45,498 bases of DNA, taken from the NCBI GenBank assembly GCA_031270325.1, contig JAISXW010000008.1, positions 1 through 45,498 of the forward strand, in the 5' to 3' direction. Under the pieces are notes generated by a model. The model ran no database searches. It saw nothing but the letters and a program-made list of their open reading frames with translations, and was not told the origin of the DNA. The translations under genes and the position numbers were made by a program. Every line of letters starts with the position of its first letter. Position 1 is the stretch's first letter. The DNA comes from Streptococcaceae bacterium. GTDB taxonomy: Bacteria > Bacillota > Bacilli > Lactobacillales > Streptococcaceae. Below are positions 2,329 to 45,414 of this stretch, in pieces.

Positions 2329-3204
2329 ATGGATAGAGAATATATTAATCATCCTGATGCTGTGCTAATCAATGAAAATCATGTGCAAACGACCCAACAA
2401 CAAACGCAAAATGCGGAAAGTGTGGCAGGGTCACGGTATGTTAGATTGTGTGATGAAATTGACCACATTCTTGCTGACGAATCGTTTTATGAACATGAAG
2501 AGATTATTGGCGAAGCCAAAGACTTGTTATATCTGGTCAGAAATCAGGAAGAAGTATCGTTGAAACGTTTGACAGAAGCTGTGGCTGCTTATTATTGTAA
2601 TCTGATGCAGGTTGAGCATGAACGCAAGGCGATGCTTGACTTGATACCCGAAGACAATGTCAGCAACAATCAAGAGGTCAACGCTGCCTATGCTGAGTTG
2701 GCTGCAGTGAAGGCCAATGCTTATAGCTGTGACGCTAGCAATGCTGAGATTTTCATGCAGCTATTAAGCTATTATGAAGCCCTCTACCATTCGCTTGATC
2801 GGGATAGCCTGCGCATCTATTTGTCTATTGACCTTTTAAAAGATCATCCTCAAGCGATTGATGGGATGTTAGACGCAAGTGTTGATGACCTCCTCGCTGT
2901 CAAAGCGCAGCAAATTGGTGGGCAAATCGACCGACTAACAGCTAATAAAGTCACACGGACAGTGCTCAATGGGATTACCAACTATTACGATAAGTCGCCC
3001 TTTGTTTCCTTTGAATTATCCGATTCGATCAATACCCTAAAGGAACTGATTGATAATCCTTATGCCAATCACGAAGAAATCGAAAATCATCTGGACCAAA
3101 TCAACCGCAAACTGATTGATTTAAAAACGATACCAACGATTATCTGTGATGAAACTTGTTCACAAATGTTTTACTACCTATCGTCTATCCATGCCACGAG
3201 CTGA
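2329..3204 (+). CDS. hypothetical protein, helical, cytoplasmic
   Basis: A 291-aa acidic, predicted helix-rich protein with no signal peptide, membrane segment or motif I recognise. The ATG at 2329 is chosen because GGAGG (2317-2321) lies seven bases upstream; an in-frame ATG at 2293 lacks a ribosome binding site. It has its own promoter and is followed by a clear terminator, so it is a single-gene unit. Sequence texture matches the core genes around it. Function unknown. Confidence 0.7.
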   Translation: MDREYINHPDAVLINENHVQTTQQQTQNAESVAGSRYVRLCDEIDHILADESFYEHEEIIGEAKDLLYLVRNQEEVSLKRLTEAVAAYYCNLMQVEHERKAMLDLIPEDNVSNNQEVNAAYAELAAVKANAYSCDASNAEIFMQLLSYYEALYHSLDRDSLRIYLSIDLLKDHPQAIDGMLDASVDDLLAVKAQQIGGQIDRLTANKVTRTVLNGITNYYDKSPFVSFELSDSINTLKELIDNPYANHEEIENHLDQINRKLIDLKTIPTIICDETCSQMFYYLSSIHATS

Positions 3205-3233
3205 TCGTTTAGCTTTTGGTTCAACATAATAAG

Positions 3234-3260
3234 CAGAGGGAACGAGTCCTCTGTTTTTTT
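3234..3260 (+). terminator. rho-independent terminator
   Basis: CAGAGG / CCTCTG stem with an 8-nt loop followed by seven T, 30 bp after the 2329 gene. Confidence 0.85.
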
Positions 3261-3283
3261 GTATGGAGAAAACAGGCAAATAG

Positions 3284-3312
3284 TTGACAGCGTTTTCAAG
3301 TTAGCGTATAAT
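3284..3312 (+). promoter_or_regulatory. sigma-A promoter with an overlapping cre-like site (locus 1)
   Basis: TTGACA (3284-3289), 17-bp spacer, TATAAT (3307-3312). The 16-mer at 3284-3299 matches the CcpA cre consensus WTGNAARCGNWWWCAW at every constrained position but one and covers the -35 box, which implies catabolite repression. The second tetranucleotide locus has the same arrangement at 17344-17372. Confidence 0.75.
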
Positions 3313-3363
3313 AAAATTATAATAATTTTAAACAAGTCAAACACTTGACAAAGGAGAATGCGT

Positions 3364-4852
3364 ATGATTCACTTAAACGAACGAACGAACGAACGAACGA
3401 ACGAACGAACGAACGAACGAACGAACGAACGAACGAACGAACGAACGAACGAACGAACGAACGGCTAACTTATTTTTTTATAAGCTGCGGCTGCGTGTTT
3501 CGGCAGTAGTCCATGCAGTCGCACAAAATTTAGGAGAGACACGAAAGTACCTCATCGGTTTGGCTTTATTGGGCTTGTTTTTGCCACCGACACTATTTGT
3601 TGTCTTGGCAGATGATACTGAGGTGAACTCGCCGGCGACAGCAGGCGAGTCAAAACTCAGCTACACCGTCGGTGAAAAATATACAGTTGTCATTCCAACG
3701 ACGATTAGTCTAACCGATCAGGCCGGCGCCGATGGCAAGTGGGGGACAGGGACAGCTAACGTGACGCTCAAGGCAAGCGATAACGCTTTGAAGATTCCGT
3801 CTGTCTACACTTTGGCGGTCGCCATAACCAAAGATCAAACGCTGAAACTGACGACAACTGGAGATATTGATGAGGGTTTGGCTTACACAATCAAGAAAGA
3901 CGATTCGAATGGTGCTGCCGTCTCGCCTGATGGCAACAGCTTTGTCTCAGCACCTGCAAGGACGACCGCTGATGTGACGCAAACCCTGTCTATTGAAAGT
4001 GGCGCACCAAAGCTTGCCGGCAACTACACAGGGATACTGAATTTCACGGTTAAAGTCGTCCCACAAGACATTACTATCGCCGGCGAACCTTGGCGGATTT
4101 TATCAATGGACATCGACCCCAACACAGAAGGCAATCAAGCCTTGGTCATCAGGGTAAATTCCTTGACCGATACCGAGATGGGACTCAGCACTTCTACTGG
4201 TGCAAGAACGAAGATTAATTTCTTATCCGCAACTGCGACATCTGGTGGCTTGCCAGCGGGTACTGGGGAAGGCAAGCGTAGTTATTACTACTTTGATAGT
4301 GATGGCTCTAATGCTTATGAGGATAGTGGCTTGGCAGCAGGTTACGGCTTAAAAGCTGCCATTGACTATTACTACACCAACTATATCGCTACCAACGAGT
4401 CTGCTGTTGCCAAAGTCAACCAAGTCTCACTCCACAATCCGACCTTAGGTGAGTGGAATGCGGCTCATAATCTATCTTGGGTCTACAATGATGGCTGGTA
4501 TGATGACTACTATAAGGATACCAACTTTAAAACAACGCTAGATGCGGATAGTGGCAGCAAACAAGCCTTTGCCCTCAGCTATGGCGATCTTAACTCGATC
4601 GGGCTAAGTAGTCCTGAAGGAAACTTTTTATTCCCGTTTTCTTTTTGGACTCGGTCGCCCGGCTTATATCATAATACTGCCGGTCGTTGTTCCGGTAACG
4701 ACTGGGAAGGTGGTAAATTCAATCACTACTTTTATCTTCTTGACGAATTAAATGGTTTAGATGAACCCAACCCCCCTGCCTTTGTTCGACCTGCTCTGGT
4801 CTACACGATTGACAATGATGCGATCATCAACCCGATTTCACCAATTTCCTAA
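3364..4852 (+). CDS. phase-variable secreted DUF6273-type protein, out of frame here (locus 1)
   Basis: Translation should start at ATG 3364 (AAGGAG at 3351-3356, 7-nt spacing), read M-I-H-L, then enter an AACG tract whose every frame encodes N-E-R-T. With the 22 units present, the frame ends at TAA 3466 after about 34 codons. The long downstream frame (3464-4852) runs open through the tract but has a stop (3374-3376) just before it, so it has no start of its own except weak TTG 3560. With 21 or 24 units it would join ATG 3364 and give about 494 aa: NERT leader, basic segment, hydrophobic signal peptide ending near VLADD, a beta-rich domain (VGEKYTVVIPTTI), and a C-terminal DUF6273-like domain (FWTRSPG ... 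VRPALVY). No LPXTG anchor is seen. A paralogue lies at 17452-18818. Confidence 0.75.
3376..3463 (+). repeat. tetranucleotide tract, 22 x AACG
   Basis: Perfect 4-bp tandem repeat placed directly after the fourth codon. One unit more or less shifts the reading frame by one base. It is followed by a T7 run (3473-3479), a second possible slippage site. Confidence 0.97.
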
Positions 4853-4890
4853 ATAGCCGACTCAGCTCGCTCGGCTCAGATCACAGACCA

Positions 4891-4935
4891 AAGCGCCTCG
4901 GCGCTTTTCTGTTGGACAAAAGTCAGCTTTTGTCC
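4891..4935 (+). terminator. two consecutive hairpins after locus 1
   Basis: AAGCGCC-TC-GGCGCTT followed by TTCT (4891-4911) is a good terminator. Immediately after it, GGACAAAA / TTTTGTCC with a six-base loop (4914-4935) forms a second perfect stem. Confidence 0.75.
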
Positions 4936-4980
4936 GTCTGAGTTCAGATACTGTTAGGTCTCTTGTTCTCTTGATTGTGT

Positions 4981-5297
4981 CATGCCTTTGAACACTTTGA
5001 TTTGGTGTCAGAATGACAGACGACGTTTGATAAATCGGAGATGCTATGTTTAAGGGACAAACTTTTAACCTAACTGAATTTGTTGTGCAGTGTAGCGGGT
5101 TGGCTCAAAACAGCTGTGGTATATAGACAAGATGCGAGCTCGCATCTTAGCTGAAAAAGCGAAGCTTTGTTTCCTCGGCAAGACCAGCCTCGTCACAGTT
5201 TTCAACTTATTTTTGGAGGCGTGTCGCCATGGTGTTTTGAGCCAAAGATCGGAACGGAACCTCCGCTATCTCGTGACTGCTCCATGCCTTTGTCGTG
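4981..5297 (+). mobile_element. MITE-like palindromic element, copy 2
   Basis: Aligns over its whole length with copy 1 (shared CTAACTGAATTTGTTGTGCA, GGCTCAAAACAGCTGTGG, TTTTGAGCCAAAGATCGGAA, TATCTCGTGA). The right end is CATGCCTTTGTCGTG (5283-5297). The left terminal repeat is not recognisable. It contains a segment (about 5172-5216) shared with copies 6 and 7 but absent from copy 1. The element ends 41 bp before the -10 box of ylxM. Confidence 0.75.
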
Positions 5298-5334
5298 TTG
5301 TCTCCAAGCTAGCTGAGTGGAAGTTAATTTTTTT

Positions 5335-16617: not shown

Positions 16618-17080
16618 ACTAAAAAAGATGGGGCGTCGGGAGAAAAAGAGTCGCCGTTGGGCAAAAAAAAGTCGGCGTCGGGTAAAAAAGATGCGCCGTT
16701 GGGCAAAAAAGAGTCTCGGTCGGTTAAAAAAGAGTGGCTGTCTGGTAAAAAAGAGTCTCCGTCGAGTAAAAAAGAGTGGCTGTTAGGTAAAAAAGAGTCT
16801 CCGTCGACTAAAAAAGAGTGGCTGTCTGGTAAAAAAGATGCGATGTCGGGAGAAAAAGAGTGGCTGTCTGGAAAAAAAGAAGCGCCGTCGAGTCCAAAAG
16901 AGTGTCCGTCTGGAAAAAAAGAAGCGCCGTTGGGCGAAAAAGAGTGTCGATCGGTCAAAAAAGAAGCGGCGTTGGGCAAAAAAGAATGTCGATCGGTCAA
17001 AAAAGAAGCGTCGTTGGATACAAAAGAGTCACGCACGGGCGAAAAAGAGTGTCGCACGGGTAAAAAAGACCCACGCTTGC
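16618..17080. repeat. 21-bp minisatellite A (about 22 units)
   Basis: Imperfect tandem repeat of about 21 bp built on (G)(G/T)TAAAAAAGAGT followed by a G/C/T-rich half, with many units alternating between two types. Because 21 is a multiple of 3, the plus strand is open for 173 codons (7-residue units such as GKKEWLS) and the minus strand for 195 (Ser/Phe-rich). Neither frame has a ribosome binding site or recognisable start, so I treat it as non-coding. Degenerate copies of a CACGC-ATGGTCAGTCGGAGA motif follow at 17090-17154. Nothing else is seen between 16540 and 17340. Confidence 0.85.
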
Positions 17081-17343: not shown

Positions 17344-17372
17344 TTGACAGCGCTTTCAAATGGTAGTATAAT
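17344..17372 (+). promoter_or_regulatory. sigma-A promoter with an overlapping cre-like site (locus 2)
   Basis: TTGACA (17344-17349), 17-bp spacer, TATAAT (17367-17372). The 16-mer 17344-17359 fits the cre consensus with one mismatch and overlaps the -35, as in locus 1. Confidence 0.75.
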
Positions 17373-17451
17373 GAACCTATAATAATTTCAAACACAATCT
17401 GTAGATTGTATTTGAATCGGACGAGTAAATACTTGACAAAGGAGAAAGCGA

Positions 17452-18818
17452 ATGATTCAATTTAACGAACGAACGAACGAACGAACGAACGAACGAACGA
17501 ACGAACGAACGAACGAACGAACGAACGGCTAACTTTATTTTTTCTTAAGCTGCGGTTGTCAGCAGTGACAAATGCAGTCGCACAAAACTTAGGCGTAAAA
17601 CGCAAGTGCTTGATGGGTTTGGCTTTATTGAGCTTGCTGCTGCCTACGACCTTACAACCTGTCTTGGCAGACGAGACTAAAAACATCACAGGCACATCAG
17701 GGGATTCAATCGTCAGCTACACCGTCGGTCAAAAGTACAAAGTGACGATTCCGACAACGATTGTTCTAACTGACCAAGCGGGTACTAAAGGGACAGGGAC
17801 TGGTACGGTCACGATCCATGCAGGGAATGACTTGAAGATTGGCAACGGCGAGACGTTGGCGGTTGCCATCAAAGCTGGCGAAAGGCTGAAGCTGGGCACG
17901 GATGGTGATGCAATCTCAGAGACTACTGGCTTGCCTTATGCGGTCAGTAAAGGCAGCACTTTTGGTGGTGCTTCAGTAGCAGCCGATGGTGCCGCCTTTG
18001 TTTCGGCAGATGCAGGCGCGACCACTGATGTGCCGCAAGCCCTCTATATCGAGAGTGCTGCACCGAAACTTGCGGGAACTTACACAGGCACGCTTACTTT
18101 CACGGTTAATGTGTCGTCGCCAGCCTTTGAGGTCAGCAGTACAGTACCGGGCACAGAATTTACCTTTGCGGGATCGGATTGGCGGATTTTGGCGACAGAT
18201 ATTGACGCTTCCGTCCCTGGTAACCAAGCCTTGATTATCAAGAAAGATGCCTTAAGTGAAAAAGAAATGTCAGCCGACGGCGAGACTGGTGCAGACACAG
18301 CCGGCAAAGCAATCAAATTCCATGAAAGTCAGAGCACCTATTTCAATAGCAATGGCGACAACGGCTATGAGCATAGCTTACTCAAAAGCAGTATTGACAA
18401 TTACTACGACCATTTCATCGCCAATCACTCTGATACTCAATACGTCCAAGCGGTCTCACTCAACACTCCGACTTTAGATGAATTTAATACTGCTAACAGT
18501 AAGAATTGGTCTTACGATAACGCTAATGGCTCAGAGGGTATTGTTTGGTATAAAGATACCCACTTTAAAACGACCCTAGGTGGCTCCGATTATGCCTTTG
18601 CGCTCTCTTATGGCGACATCAATACCACCATGGGTCTAAGTGGTCAAATTAGCAGCTCTTTCCTAAACTTTGCTGATACTTATTGGCTTCGGTCGTCCGG
18701 CGGCACTCCTGTTTGTGCGGGCTTTGTCAGCGAAGCTGTCTTCACCCCCTACAATTCTGTGGATGGCACTCGTCTAGCTCGTCCAGCTCTAGTGATAAAT
18801 ATTAAACAAGCCTCATAG
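17452..18818 (+). CDS. phase-variable secreted DUF6273-type protein, out of frame here (locus 2)
   Basis: Paralogue of the locus at 3364. ATG 17452 follows AAAGGAG (17438-17444) at seven bases, reads M-I-Q-F, then 16 AACG units. With 16 units the frame stops at TAA 17530 after 26 codons. The long frame to 18818 is open through the tract but has a stop at 17463-17465, so ATG-driven expression needs 14 or 17 units. The predicted ON product is about 456 aa: NERT repeats, basic segment, signal peptide (GLALLSLLLP ... VLADE), beta-rich domain (VGQKYKVTIPTTI), and a C-terminal DUF6273-like part (YWLRSSG ... RPALVI). A weak in-frame TTG at 17556 could give low expression. No wall anchor is seen. Confidence 0.75.
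17464..17527 (+). repeat. tetranucleotide tract, 16 x AACG
   Basis: Perfect 4-bp tandem repeat directly after codon 4. It is followed by a T6 run (17538-17543). One base more lies between tract and signal peptide than in locus 1, so the ON register differs (n = 2 mod 3 here, n = 0 mod 3 in locus 1). Confidence 0.97.
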
Positions 18819-27267: not shown

Positions 27268-27407
27268 GTTTAGTCTCCTCTTTTGTTTTGTGCGCATTCC
27301 TTTTTCCCTTAAAATGACTGACTTCATTATAACATAAAATTAAAGTGTAAATAAAAGAAAGTTTAAGAAAGTTTTTGAAAATGAATCTGAAATTTTCCGA
27401 TTGACTG

Positions 27408-27767
27408 TCAAAATATTTTGAGACTAAGTCTGAATGTTTTCAACTGAATGTCAAAAAATTTTTAGACTGAGTGTCAAAAAATTTGAGACTGAGTGCAAAA
27501 AAATTTTAGACTGAGTGCAAAAAAATTTTAGACTGAGTGTCAAAATATTTTAGACTGAGTGTCAAAATATTTTAGACTGAGTGCAAAAAAATTTTAGACT
27601 GAGTGTAAAAAAAATTTAGACTCAGTGTAAAAAAATTTTAGACTGAGTGCAAAAAAATTTTAGACTGAGTGTAAAAAAATTTCAGACTCAGTGTCAAAAA
27701 ATTTTAGACTGAGTGTCAAAATATTTGAGACTGACTCTGAAAAAAATTTCAAACTCAGTCTCAAAAA
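27408..27767. repeat. 22-bp minisatellite B (about 16 units)
   Basis: Tandem units close to AGACTGAGTGCAAAAAAATTTT with variants GTGTC, ATATTTT and GACTCAGTG. The period is not a multiple of three, so it is non-coding. The AAAA-TTTT halves and the GACTCAGTG/GACTGAGTG variants can pair between units. It lies upstream of the HU-like gene and downstream of the lactonase gene. A three-unit patch of the same motif is at 11854-11914. Confidence 0.9.
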
Positions 27768-27819
27768 ATCTTCCTAAAGTCCCAAGTCATCCCGCGGCTA
27801 GTCGTCATTAGGCACAAAC

Positions 27820-37961: not shown

Positions 37962-38289
37962 AAGCTCGGAGGCGAGGAATTCGACTTCCGAGCAAAAACA
38001 CTCGAGCACGGAGCAGAAGTATTCGAGCTTAGAGCAGAAATGCTTGAGCTCGGAGCAGAAACACTCGAGCTTAAAGCAGAAATACTCGAGCTTAGAGGAG
38101 AAACACTTGAGCTTAGAGCAGAAGTATTCGAGCACGGAGCAGAAAAACTCGAGCTTAAAGCAGAAATACTCGAGTTCAGAGGAGAAACACTTGAGCTTAG
38201 AGCAGAAGTATTCGAGCTCAGAGCAGGAATGCCCGAGATTAGAGTAGAATAACTTGAGTTCAAAGCAGAAATCTTTGAGCACGGAGGAG
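37962..38289. repeat. 21-bp minisatellite C (about 15.6 units)
   Basis: Units close to GAGCTTAGAGCAGAAGTATTC. A higher-order 84-bp (four-unit) period is visible: units starting 38067, 38088 and 38109 recur at 38151, 38172 and 38193. On the plus strand the frame reads a heptad (E-L-R-A-E-x-L) that would suit a coiled coil, but there is no start signal. The sequence after the array (38290-38560) contains only two related motifs, CAAAATTCACTTATAA, near 38491 and 38531. Confidence 0.9.
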
Positions 38290-44571: not shown

Positions 44572-45414
44572 ATGAGCACAAACAAATCAAACACTACAAC
44601 TAAAACAAAAAAAGTGATAAAAATGATTAGCTTACTTTCAGCCTTTGTTTTTGTCAGTGGTTTCGGCTATATCGAAACTGTACGCACCCAACAGAGTCAA
44701 AATCCAGAAGTGCGATTAGCTGATAAAAAAGCTACGACAGCAAAAGTGACCTCTTTAAATGCTGCGAAAGTGTCAAATGATAAAGCGGAAGAAGCTCAAG
44801 CCGCGCAAGCCGCACAGGCAGTTCAAGCTGCACAAGAAGCTCAAGCTGCACAGGCAGCTCAAGCTGCCCAAGAAGCTCAAGCCGCACAGGCAGCACAAGC
44901 CGCACAAGAAGCTCAAGCTGCCCAAGAAGCTCAAGCCGCACAAGCTGCCCAAGAAGCTCAAGCCGCACAAGAAGCTCAAGCAGCGGTCCAAGCTGCACCT
45001 GTAACCGTAAATGCGATTAGTATCTTAGGTGTTACCATCCCCTTTATGAATGGCGGTCAAGGAAGTGGTCAAGCAGTCATCGACAGCAATCCCAGTGGAC
45101 TGGCATCTACATGGGGCGGGGCAGAGACATTCTCTGGAACAGATGGTCTTAATACTCACTTTATCGGTCATAACCCAGGCGCTTTTGCCCCTGTCATGAG
45201 TTTAGGTGTGGGAGGAAGTGTTACGATTTTCGATAGCAATGGCCAAGCTTTCCACTACACGATTTATAAGATTGTGGTTGTTGATATCTATGGTAGAGAC
45301 ATTAACACGGGTGCCTCTCTTTTCGGAGAAATTGCGACAGCCGGAGGAGGCGAACGGATCGTCCTTCAAACTTGTATTGATGACACAACGAGAAGAATCG
45401 TATTTGCTGCTTAA
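44572..45414 (+). CDS. secreted/anchored sortase-fold protein with Ala/Gln repeat stalk
   Basis: 280 aa. A basic N terminus and one hydrophobic segment (about residues 17-36) act as a signal or anchor. A 70-residue Ala/Gln/Glu repeat (AAQEAQAAQ units, about 74-142) forms a helical stalk. The C-terminal ~135 residues resemble a sortase-type beta-barrel: catalytic His in THFIGHNPG, Cys in IVLQTC, Arg in TTRRIVFA. There is no sorting-signal gene beside it. It may be a cysteine transpeptidase or a non-canonical sortase homologue. RBS AAAGGAG precedes the ATG. The repeat DNA is itself unstable-looking. Confidence 0.75.
   Translation: MSTNKSNTTTKTKKVIKMISLLSAFVFVSGFGYIETVRTQQSQNPEVRLADKKATTAKVTSLNAAKVSNDKAEEAQAAQAAQAVQAAQEAQAAQAAQAAQEAQAAQAAQAAQEAQAAQEAQAAQAAQEAQAAQEAQAAVQAAPVTVNAISILGVTIPFMNGGQGSGQAVIDSNPSGLASTWGGAETFSGTDGLNTHFIGHNPGAFAPVMSLGVGGSVTIFDSNGQAFHYTIYKIVVVDIYGRDINTGASLFGEIATAGGGERIVLQTCIDDTTRRIVFAA

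Follow-up and report, generated by a model that had tools for sequence, protein, structure and literature searches.

The window, the whole stretch of 45,498 nucleotides that was analyzed, comes from a Streptococcaceae genome and carries two genes with a tract of the tetranucleotide AACG just behind the start codon. Locus 1, on the forward strand, is internal to this 45-kb contig and has nox, ylxM, ffh, and pheA as neighbors. Its distal promoter (TTGACA-17-TATAAT, 3284–3312) agrees with the consensus at 12 of 12 positions and was the only such site in a scan of 3200–5320, in which three sites scored at least 9/12, about the number given by shuffled sequence. A proximal TTGACA box (3345–3350), 31 nt before the tract, touches the ribosome binding site AAGGAG (3351–3356), which was read from the sequence, and the start codon ATG follows at 3364–3366, as indicated by the sequence and a frame test. 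The tract begins 12 nt from this ATG and consists of 22.0 AACG copies at 100% match (3376–3463) by repeat detection and the frame test, so the 22 perfect units behind promoter, ribosome site, and ATG in the original prediction were recovered in full.

Reading frames and products of the two loci

The three frames of the locus 1 tract are all free of stops and encode rotations of NERT, as predicted. With 22 units, reading from ATG 3364 gives 34 amino acids and then meets TAA at 3466–3468, which is the OFF state. Changing the unit number in silico gave products of 494 amino acids for n = 21 and 498 for n = 24, matching the early stop and the protein of about 494 residues that had been expected for n = 0 mod 3; over the range n = 15–27, every multiple of three was open (486–502 amino acids) and all other numbers ended after 26–53 amino acids. 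The long frame (3464–4852, forward strand, 462 codons plus stop), recognized as an open reading frame and by its dN/dS, runs without interruption from the tract into a signal peptide with a charged N region (3464–3610, boundary drawn by eye). At n = 22, this frame is closed by TAA at 3374–3376, which adjoins the tract, and contains no start codon from that TAA to the tract, as had also been foreseen; at n = 23, it has one upstream TTG, at 3345. Locus 1 thus has a pure repeat with a unit that is not a multiple of three in the 5′ part of a coding region, one register that gives the full-length product while the others stop early, expression signals, and a selected frame, which are among the features by which in-gene repeat contingency genes are recognized.

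The description of locus 1 as "currently OFF" holds for the assembled consensus and does not extend beyond it. Similarly, the gene had been called a surface gene, and the signal peptide is visible by eye in the long frames, but anchoring at the surface did not stand; since no LPXTG anchor was seen in the translations, "secreted" is the safer word. No collagen-like Gly-X-Y region was seen in the locus 1 translation. The window protein was assigned to no Pfam family, DUF6273 (PF19789) giving no match up to E = 1, and NCBIfam returned nothing for it and a single chance-level GroES line (E 0.21) for the locus 2 protein. Within the paralogous family described below, DUF6273 matched two of nine proteins (best E 1.2e-5) and reached about the cut-off in the related genomes G032 and G027, and the glycine-rich domain PF12810 was present in two of the nine (best E 5e-42; seen in C14 and, by likeness, in C28). 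An AlphaFold2 model of the mature protein, built from a two-sequence alignment, had a mean pLDDT of 32.7.

Locus 2 repeats this arrangement on the forward strand, with a distal promoter at 17344–17372 (12/12 consensus), a proximal TTGACA-like box found by the element scan at 17433–17438, ATG at 17452–17454, and an (AACG)16 tract at 17464–17527 that is OFF as assembled and belongs to the ON class n = 2 mod 3. Its long frame, an open reading frame of 429 codons plus stop, occupies 17529–18818. Cre-like motifs lie over both distal promoters, in locus 1 as TGACAGCGTTTTCA at 3285–3298, a predicted CcpA site on the forward strand, and in locus 2 at 17345–17358, likewise on the forward strand. The motif matches were made against the cre consensus TGWNANCGNTNWCA. 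Three such motifs occur in the window, where 0.19 would be expected, and the AACG promoters account for two of them, one each; among the nine paralogue promoters, five carry a full match, three a match with one mismatch, and one no match at that place, with part of the motif being contributed by the −35 hexamer itself. The motifs suggest a possible catabolite control on top of phase variation.

The neighborhood of locus 1 was compared with that of 11 congeners, in all of which Ffh was 89–94% identical. Around ffh, ylxM was matched in all 11 and the surface gene in none, with about 1 kb at most being visible upstream of ylxM. Only the ffh locus of congener G009 extends to nox, with a nox–ylxM gap of about 0.65 kb (between alignment ends) vs 3.2 kb in the window, and the 303-aa open reading frame neighboring locus 1 was absent from all 11. 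The window also contains degenerate minisatellites with units of about 18–84 nt (16621–17049, 27390–27769, 37990–38272, and 44789–44981), in which no relation to the AACG switches was seen.

The AACG gene family and repeat leaders in related genomes

A pattern of at least five AACG units was found at 12 places on nine contigs of the genome, and the reversed control pattern was found at none, which excludes chance as the origin of the tracts. Contig ends overlap by exactly 119 nt in two pairs and by 82 nt in one pair, so the 12 places reduce to nine loci; the count is therefore about nine and may be ten, the 82-nt overlap being mostly tract. An ATG-free pattern (at least four units, then a non-A base) hit 10 places in this genome, all at known AACG loci, and four places in a search of 14 genomes, again all known, although such searches are partial, as a tract is picked up only if its last unit is complete and a changed base comes next. 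The source assembly comprises 40 contigs and is 70.55% complete, with contig ends often in or near AACG tracts, so that unit numbers may be consensus values or wrong.

The nine paralogues share a common layout, with ATG 12 nt before the tract wherever the contig shows it, and GCTAAC or GCTAAT and a signal peptide behind it. The distal promoter arrangement scores 11–12 of 12 in eight paralogues and 10 in the ninth, and a C-terminal region is common to seven of the nine. Unit numbers are 22, 16, 26, 11, 17, 21, 11, 7, and 10, the tract of 21 being composed of 20 AACG and an end unit AACA. One paralogue is ON as assembled (n = 11, its locus being split over contigs C8 and C11), where three of nine would be expected (P of at most one = 0.14). 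Minor differences immediately after the tract place the genes in two ON classes, n = 2 mod 3 for four of them (w2, C8/C11, C29, and C28) and n = 0 mod 3 for the other five, and despite this the long frame is intact in all nine. In the 36 pairs of the nine, dN/dS of the long frames was 0.28–0.59 throughout, with dS near saturation in distant pairs; in the six pairs for which all frames were tested, the right frame gave 0.39–0.52 and the wrong frames 0.99–1.43, and wrong frames contained 17–66 stops per gene. Locus 1 and its closest paralogue gave 0.39, a weaker constraint than would be expected of a housekeeping gene. Purifying selection on the long frames, judged against wrong-frame controls, indicates switches rather than dead genes, and the claim of a contingency-locus layout was borne out by nine paralogues of like build, with selected and intact long frames and one of them ON as assembled.

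Outside this genome, the AACG pattern was present in four of 335 Streptococcaceae genomes, its own included, and in none of 11 other species of its genus. A scan of GTDB genomes for ribosome site, ATG, and (AACG)5 returned 16 stretches. Those in Streptococcaceae were nine from the MAG Nc350_bin205, one from UW_MP_STREP2_1, and one from the isolate Streptococcus sciuri SQ9-PEA; Zoogloeaceae, Oxalobacteraceae, Roseburia, Avibacterium paragallinarum, and Synergistales gave one each. A profile of the nine proteins matched eight of 78 genomes, comprising the own genome, four of the 11 congeners, and three of a sister genus, and matches beyond the own genome were mostly to the C-terminal part. Other genes can follow the tract. 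In two Streptococcaceae MAGs, AACG tracts stand behind ATGs at L058, L061, and L062, one of them with a protein of no assigned family; the genes after the tract encode, among others, an EpsG polymerase together with a hexapeptide transferase at L061, and a DUF6625 protein at L058. In S. sciuri (L065), an N6/N4 DNA methylase gene carries (AACG)19 behind its ATG; it is probably a type III modification gene and makes a candidate phasevarion. An IMG/VR viral contig (L158) also carries (AACG)19, in an unrelated reading frame.

A second design was found within the same family. The tenth paralogue (404 aa; L115:1332–2780, minus strand), on contig C7 of the own genome, has no AACG and is preceded by a leader peptide, MYNLSAQHST.., that carries (CAGCA)15; depending on the frame, its reading ends at +5, +60, or +118. 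Between about +55 and +125 lies a terminator hairpin (−37 to −38 kcal/mol), followed by the gene's own ribosome site and an ATG at +159. A separate leader, a terminator, and an own start are the parts of a Pil1-type attenuator, and the layout of this gene has all three, while locus 1 has a continuous frame and a weak fold. The own genome holds one secreted-protein family of ten members under two putative switch designs, and its candidate repeat-switched loci number 13 (nine AACG, two CAGCA, and two GCAGA).

On contig C30 of the same genome (L220, 9000–12000, minus strand), a (GCAGA)6 leader stands ahead of an AbiH gene (PF14253, E 7e-24), with an inverted repeat and a T-run visible between leader and gene; this abortive-infection gene is possibly a phase-variable phage defence. 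The same contig has a (CAGCA)4 leader followed by a hairpin of −32.6 kcal/mol (L133, at 45347), and a (GCAGA)12 leader is located at a contig end (L219, G000:C6:1–300). A GCAGA tract of 65 units, with TTGACA 29 nt upstream, was observed in a congener (L217, G008:C5). The near-complete genome G027, of another Streptococcaceae genus, has eight CAGCA leaders of 8–31 units on contig C2 (L147–L154), each before a similar protein of 541–557 aa; their folds consist of a GC hairpin and then a T-run, and the proteins end in a DUF6273-like motif, Pfam having been run on one of the eight. In G032, AACG tracts themselves lie in separate leader peptides. Loci in G025, G027, and G032 have the leader layout, in which the repeat precedes a ribosome site and ATG that belong to the gene itself.

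A promoter-like element at the tract edge

The proximal box of locus 1 has counterparts across these switches. All 33 distinct Streptococcaceae loci with AACG or CAGCA had a TTGA box at most 35 nt upstream of the ATG, vs 17 of 97 control starts with ribosome site and ATG, and 27 of the 33 had TTGAC in the same interval, vs 2 of 97; TTGAC was found in none of five AACG loci outside Streptococcaceae. Of 27 independent GCAGA loci, 21 had TTGA at −28 to −40 relative to the tract and 22 had a TATAAT-like hexamer (at least 5/6) no more than 20 nt away from it, the CAGCA and GCAGA loci having been collected with a pattern that requires an ATG. For the pooled set, 60 of 67 tracts were kept after six duplicates and one short upstream were dropped. 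Over 50 nt spanning the tract edge, the best match to TTGACA-(16–18)-TATAAT scored at least 10/12 in 44 of these 60 loci vs 0 of 131 control starts, and in 27 of 37 upstreams that are less than 60% alike; 1.1% of mononucleotide shuffles reached a score of 10.

In 53 of 60 loci, the best TTGACA-like hexamer at any position of the 70 nt upstream was separated from the tract by 28–38 nt. In a search restricted to 26–40 nt from the tract, which favors such a result, the distance of the TTGA box was 31.6 ± 1.7 nt to the tract and 20.8 ± 4.8 nt to the ATG. With position unrestricted, Levene's test gave no significant difference between the spreads to tract and to ATG (p 0.23 for all loci, 0.32 for non-redundant ones), the interquartile ranges of the non-redundant set being 29–33 nt to the tract and 18–28 nt to the ATG. 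That the box is spaced from the tract and not from the ATG is therefore a tendency. In the AACG genes of the own genome, the −35 box is present, the −10 is poor (3–4/6), and the good promoter lies further upstream. Fusions of Pil1 to lacZ showed activity from the distal promoter only (PMC3894217).

We put forward tentatively, and with the odds rather against it, that repeat switches of Streptococcaceae share a second sigma-A-like element over the ribosome site and ATG and that, for any unit and any gene, its predicted transcription start coincides with the first units of the repeat. Such an element might act as a built-in mutability promoter, either because RNA polymerase opening DNA at the tract edge would raise slippage or through a second, untranslated transcript. 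The recurrent position of the element at the tract edge offers a cheap and direct way to ask whether transcription helps to set the mutation rate of contingency loci.

Probable frame switching, alternative explanations, and known systems

Considering these results, we regard locus 1 as very probably a phase-variable (contingency) gene switched by its AACG tract. Transcription would start from the distal consensus promoter, which the cre-like site lying over it probably subjects to sugar control, and ribosomes would initiate at ATG 3364 and traverse a tract that is open in all frames. Slipped-strand mispairing is expected to add or remove 4-nt units and so to shift the register behind the tract. 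One register of three would then lead to the signal peptide and the secreted protein, while the other two would stop at most about 50 nt behind the tract. With about nine paralogues under the same switch, cells of this lineage may show shifting combinations of secreted proteins. We infer the slippage in the host, the resulting protein output, and the purpose, which might be variation of the coat towards hosts, phages, or grazers; if tract length decides protein production, a population could keep altering its coat at random.

The tract could instead be a leader peptide that acts by attenuation or re-initiation, as in the Pil1 type, with the secreted protein starting behind it. This layout does occur nearby, in the tenth paralogue and in G025, G027, and G032, where the repeat is followed by an own ribosome site and ATG. 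In locus 1, however, the frame runs from the tract into the signal peptide, and the first in-frame start given by the ORF tool behind the tract is TTG 3560, which lies within the signal peptide and has no visible ribosome site. The best fold behind the tract is interrupted and reaches −13.5 kcal/mol over 68 nt, vs −37 in the tenth paralogue, and no fold was found behind the tract of locus 2; lacking a terminator-like fold, both loci are ill suited to an attenuator, and we consider a leader role of the locus 1 tract unlikely.

A pseudogene in decay, fixed in the wrong frame and with the tract as a neutral microsatellite, is an even less probable reading of locus 1. Eight of nine paralogues being OFF as assembled would fit such decay, but open long frames in all nine and purifying selection in each of the 36 pairs, with wrong frames as the control in six, speak against it, as do the retained promoter and ribosome site and the confinement of the tracts to this one position in the genome. 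An artefact of assembly or binning, by which the tract length or the whole locus would be foreign to the genome, might be suspected from the several contigs that end in or beside AACG tracts and from the two exact 119-nt end overlaps, which are of the kind left by k-mer assemblers. We give this the least credence, as the tract of locus 1 lies inside its contig with nox, ylxM, ffh, and pheA at its side, Ffh is conserved in all congeners, four of them carry the C-terminal part of the family, and AACG tracts are present in three other Streptococcaceae genomes, one of which is the S. sciuri isolate.

Switching of locus 1 by frame, the reading that we prefer, is further supported by Scl2 and ModS, switches of this kind that operate in related bacteria. 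In Streptococcus pyogenes Scl2/SclB, CAAAA repeats behind the start codon decide between in-frame and truncated reading (PMC5005324). Locus 1 resembles it in the position of the repeat, in an exported protein, in the unit number that determines a full or truncated product, and in belonging to the same family, Streptococcaceae. Scl2 differs in being a single gene for a collagen-like adhesin with a pentanucleotide, whereas here the unit is AACG, the paralogues number about nine, and the protein is unrelated; the Gly-X-Y and LPXTG features that mark Scl2 were not found in locus 1. The type III methyltransferase ModS of Streptococcus suis has GAGCA(n), with mixed unit numbers measured within strains (PMC6265453), and, in a Streptococcus, resembles locus 1 as proposed here in its 5′ repeat with ON–OFF frame switching. 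In contrast to locus 1, it is a DNA methyltransferase, with the methylase of S. sciuri as its AACG counterpart; the ModS unit, GAGCA, is a rotation of GCAGA and not of AACG.

In Streptococcus gallolyticus Pil1, an out-of-frame repeat change brings the leader stop into the terminator and thereby increases pilus transcription (PMC3894217). Pil1 and Pil3, with a GCAGA leader and a terminator, are alike in that a translated short leader repeat switches a surface structure, a layout shared by the tenth paralogue; the window genes differ in fusing the tract to the protein and in having no terminator. The original prediction that no such description exists for this kind of organism therefore did not hold, as Scl2, ModS, and Pil1 are repeat switches described in the family of the host.

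Among more distant bacteria, Haemophilus influenzae has many tetranucleotide-repeat loci in one genome that switch exposed structures. The genes named for them are lipopolysaccharide genes (PMC2651432) of a Gram-negative organism, whereas here one paralogous family of secreted proteins is concerned, in Streptococcaceae. Literature searches in a mainly open-access collection yielded no description of AACG as a phase-variable unit, of this protein family, or of some nine such paralogues accompanied by a tenth that is controlled by a repeat-leader attenuator, and the Streptococcus cases in the passages covered of a review of phase variation (PMC11868660) include none like the AACG family. Should the switching prove real, large switch repertoires exist in Streptococcaceae other than the well-studied pathogens. 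Repeat switching itself is known in Streptococcaceae, and what is new here is the AACG unit, the scale, and the two designs in one family.
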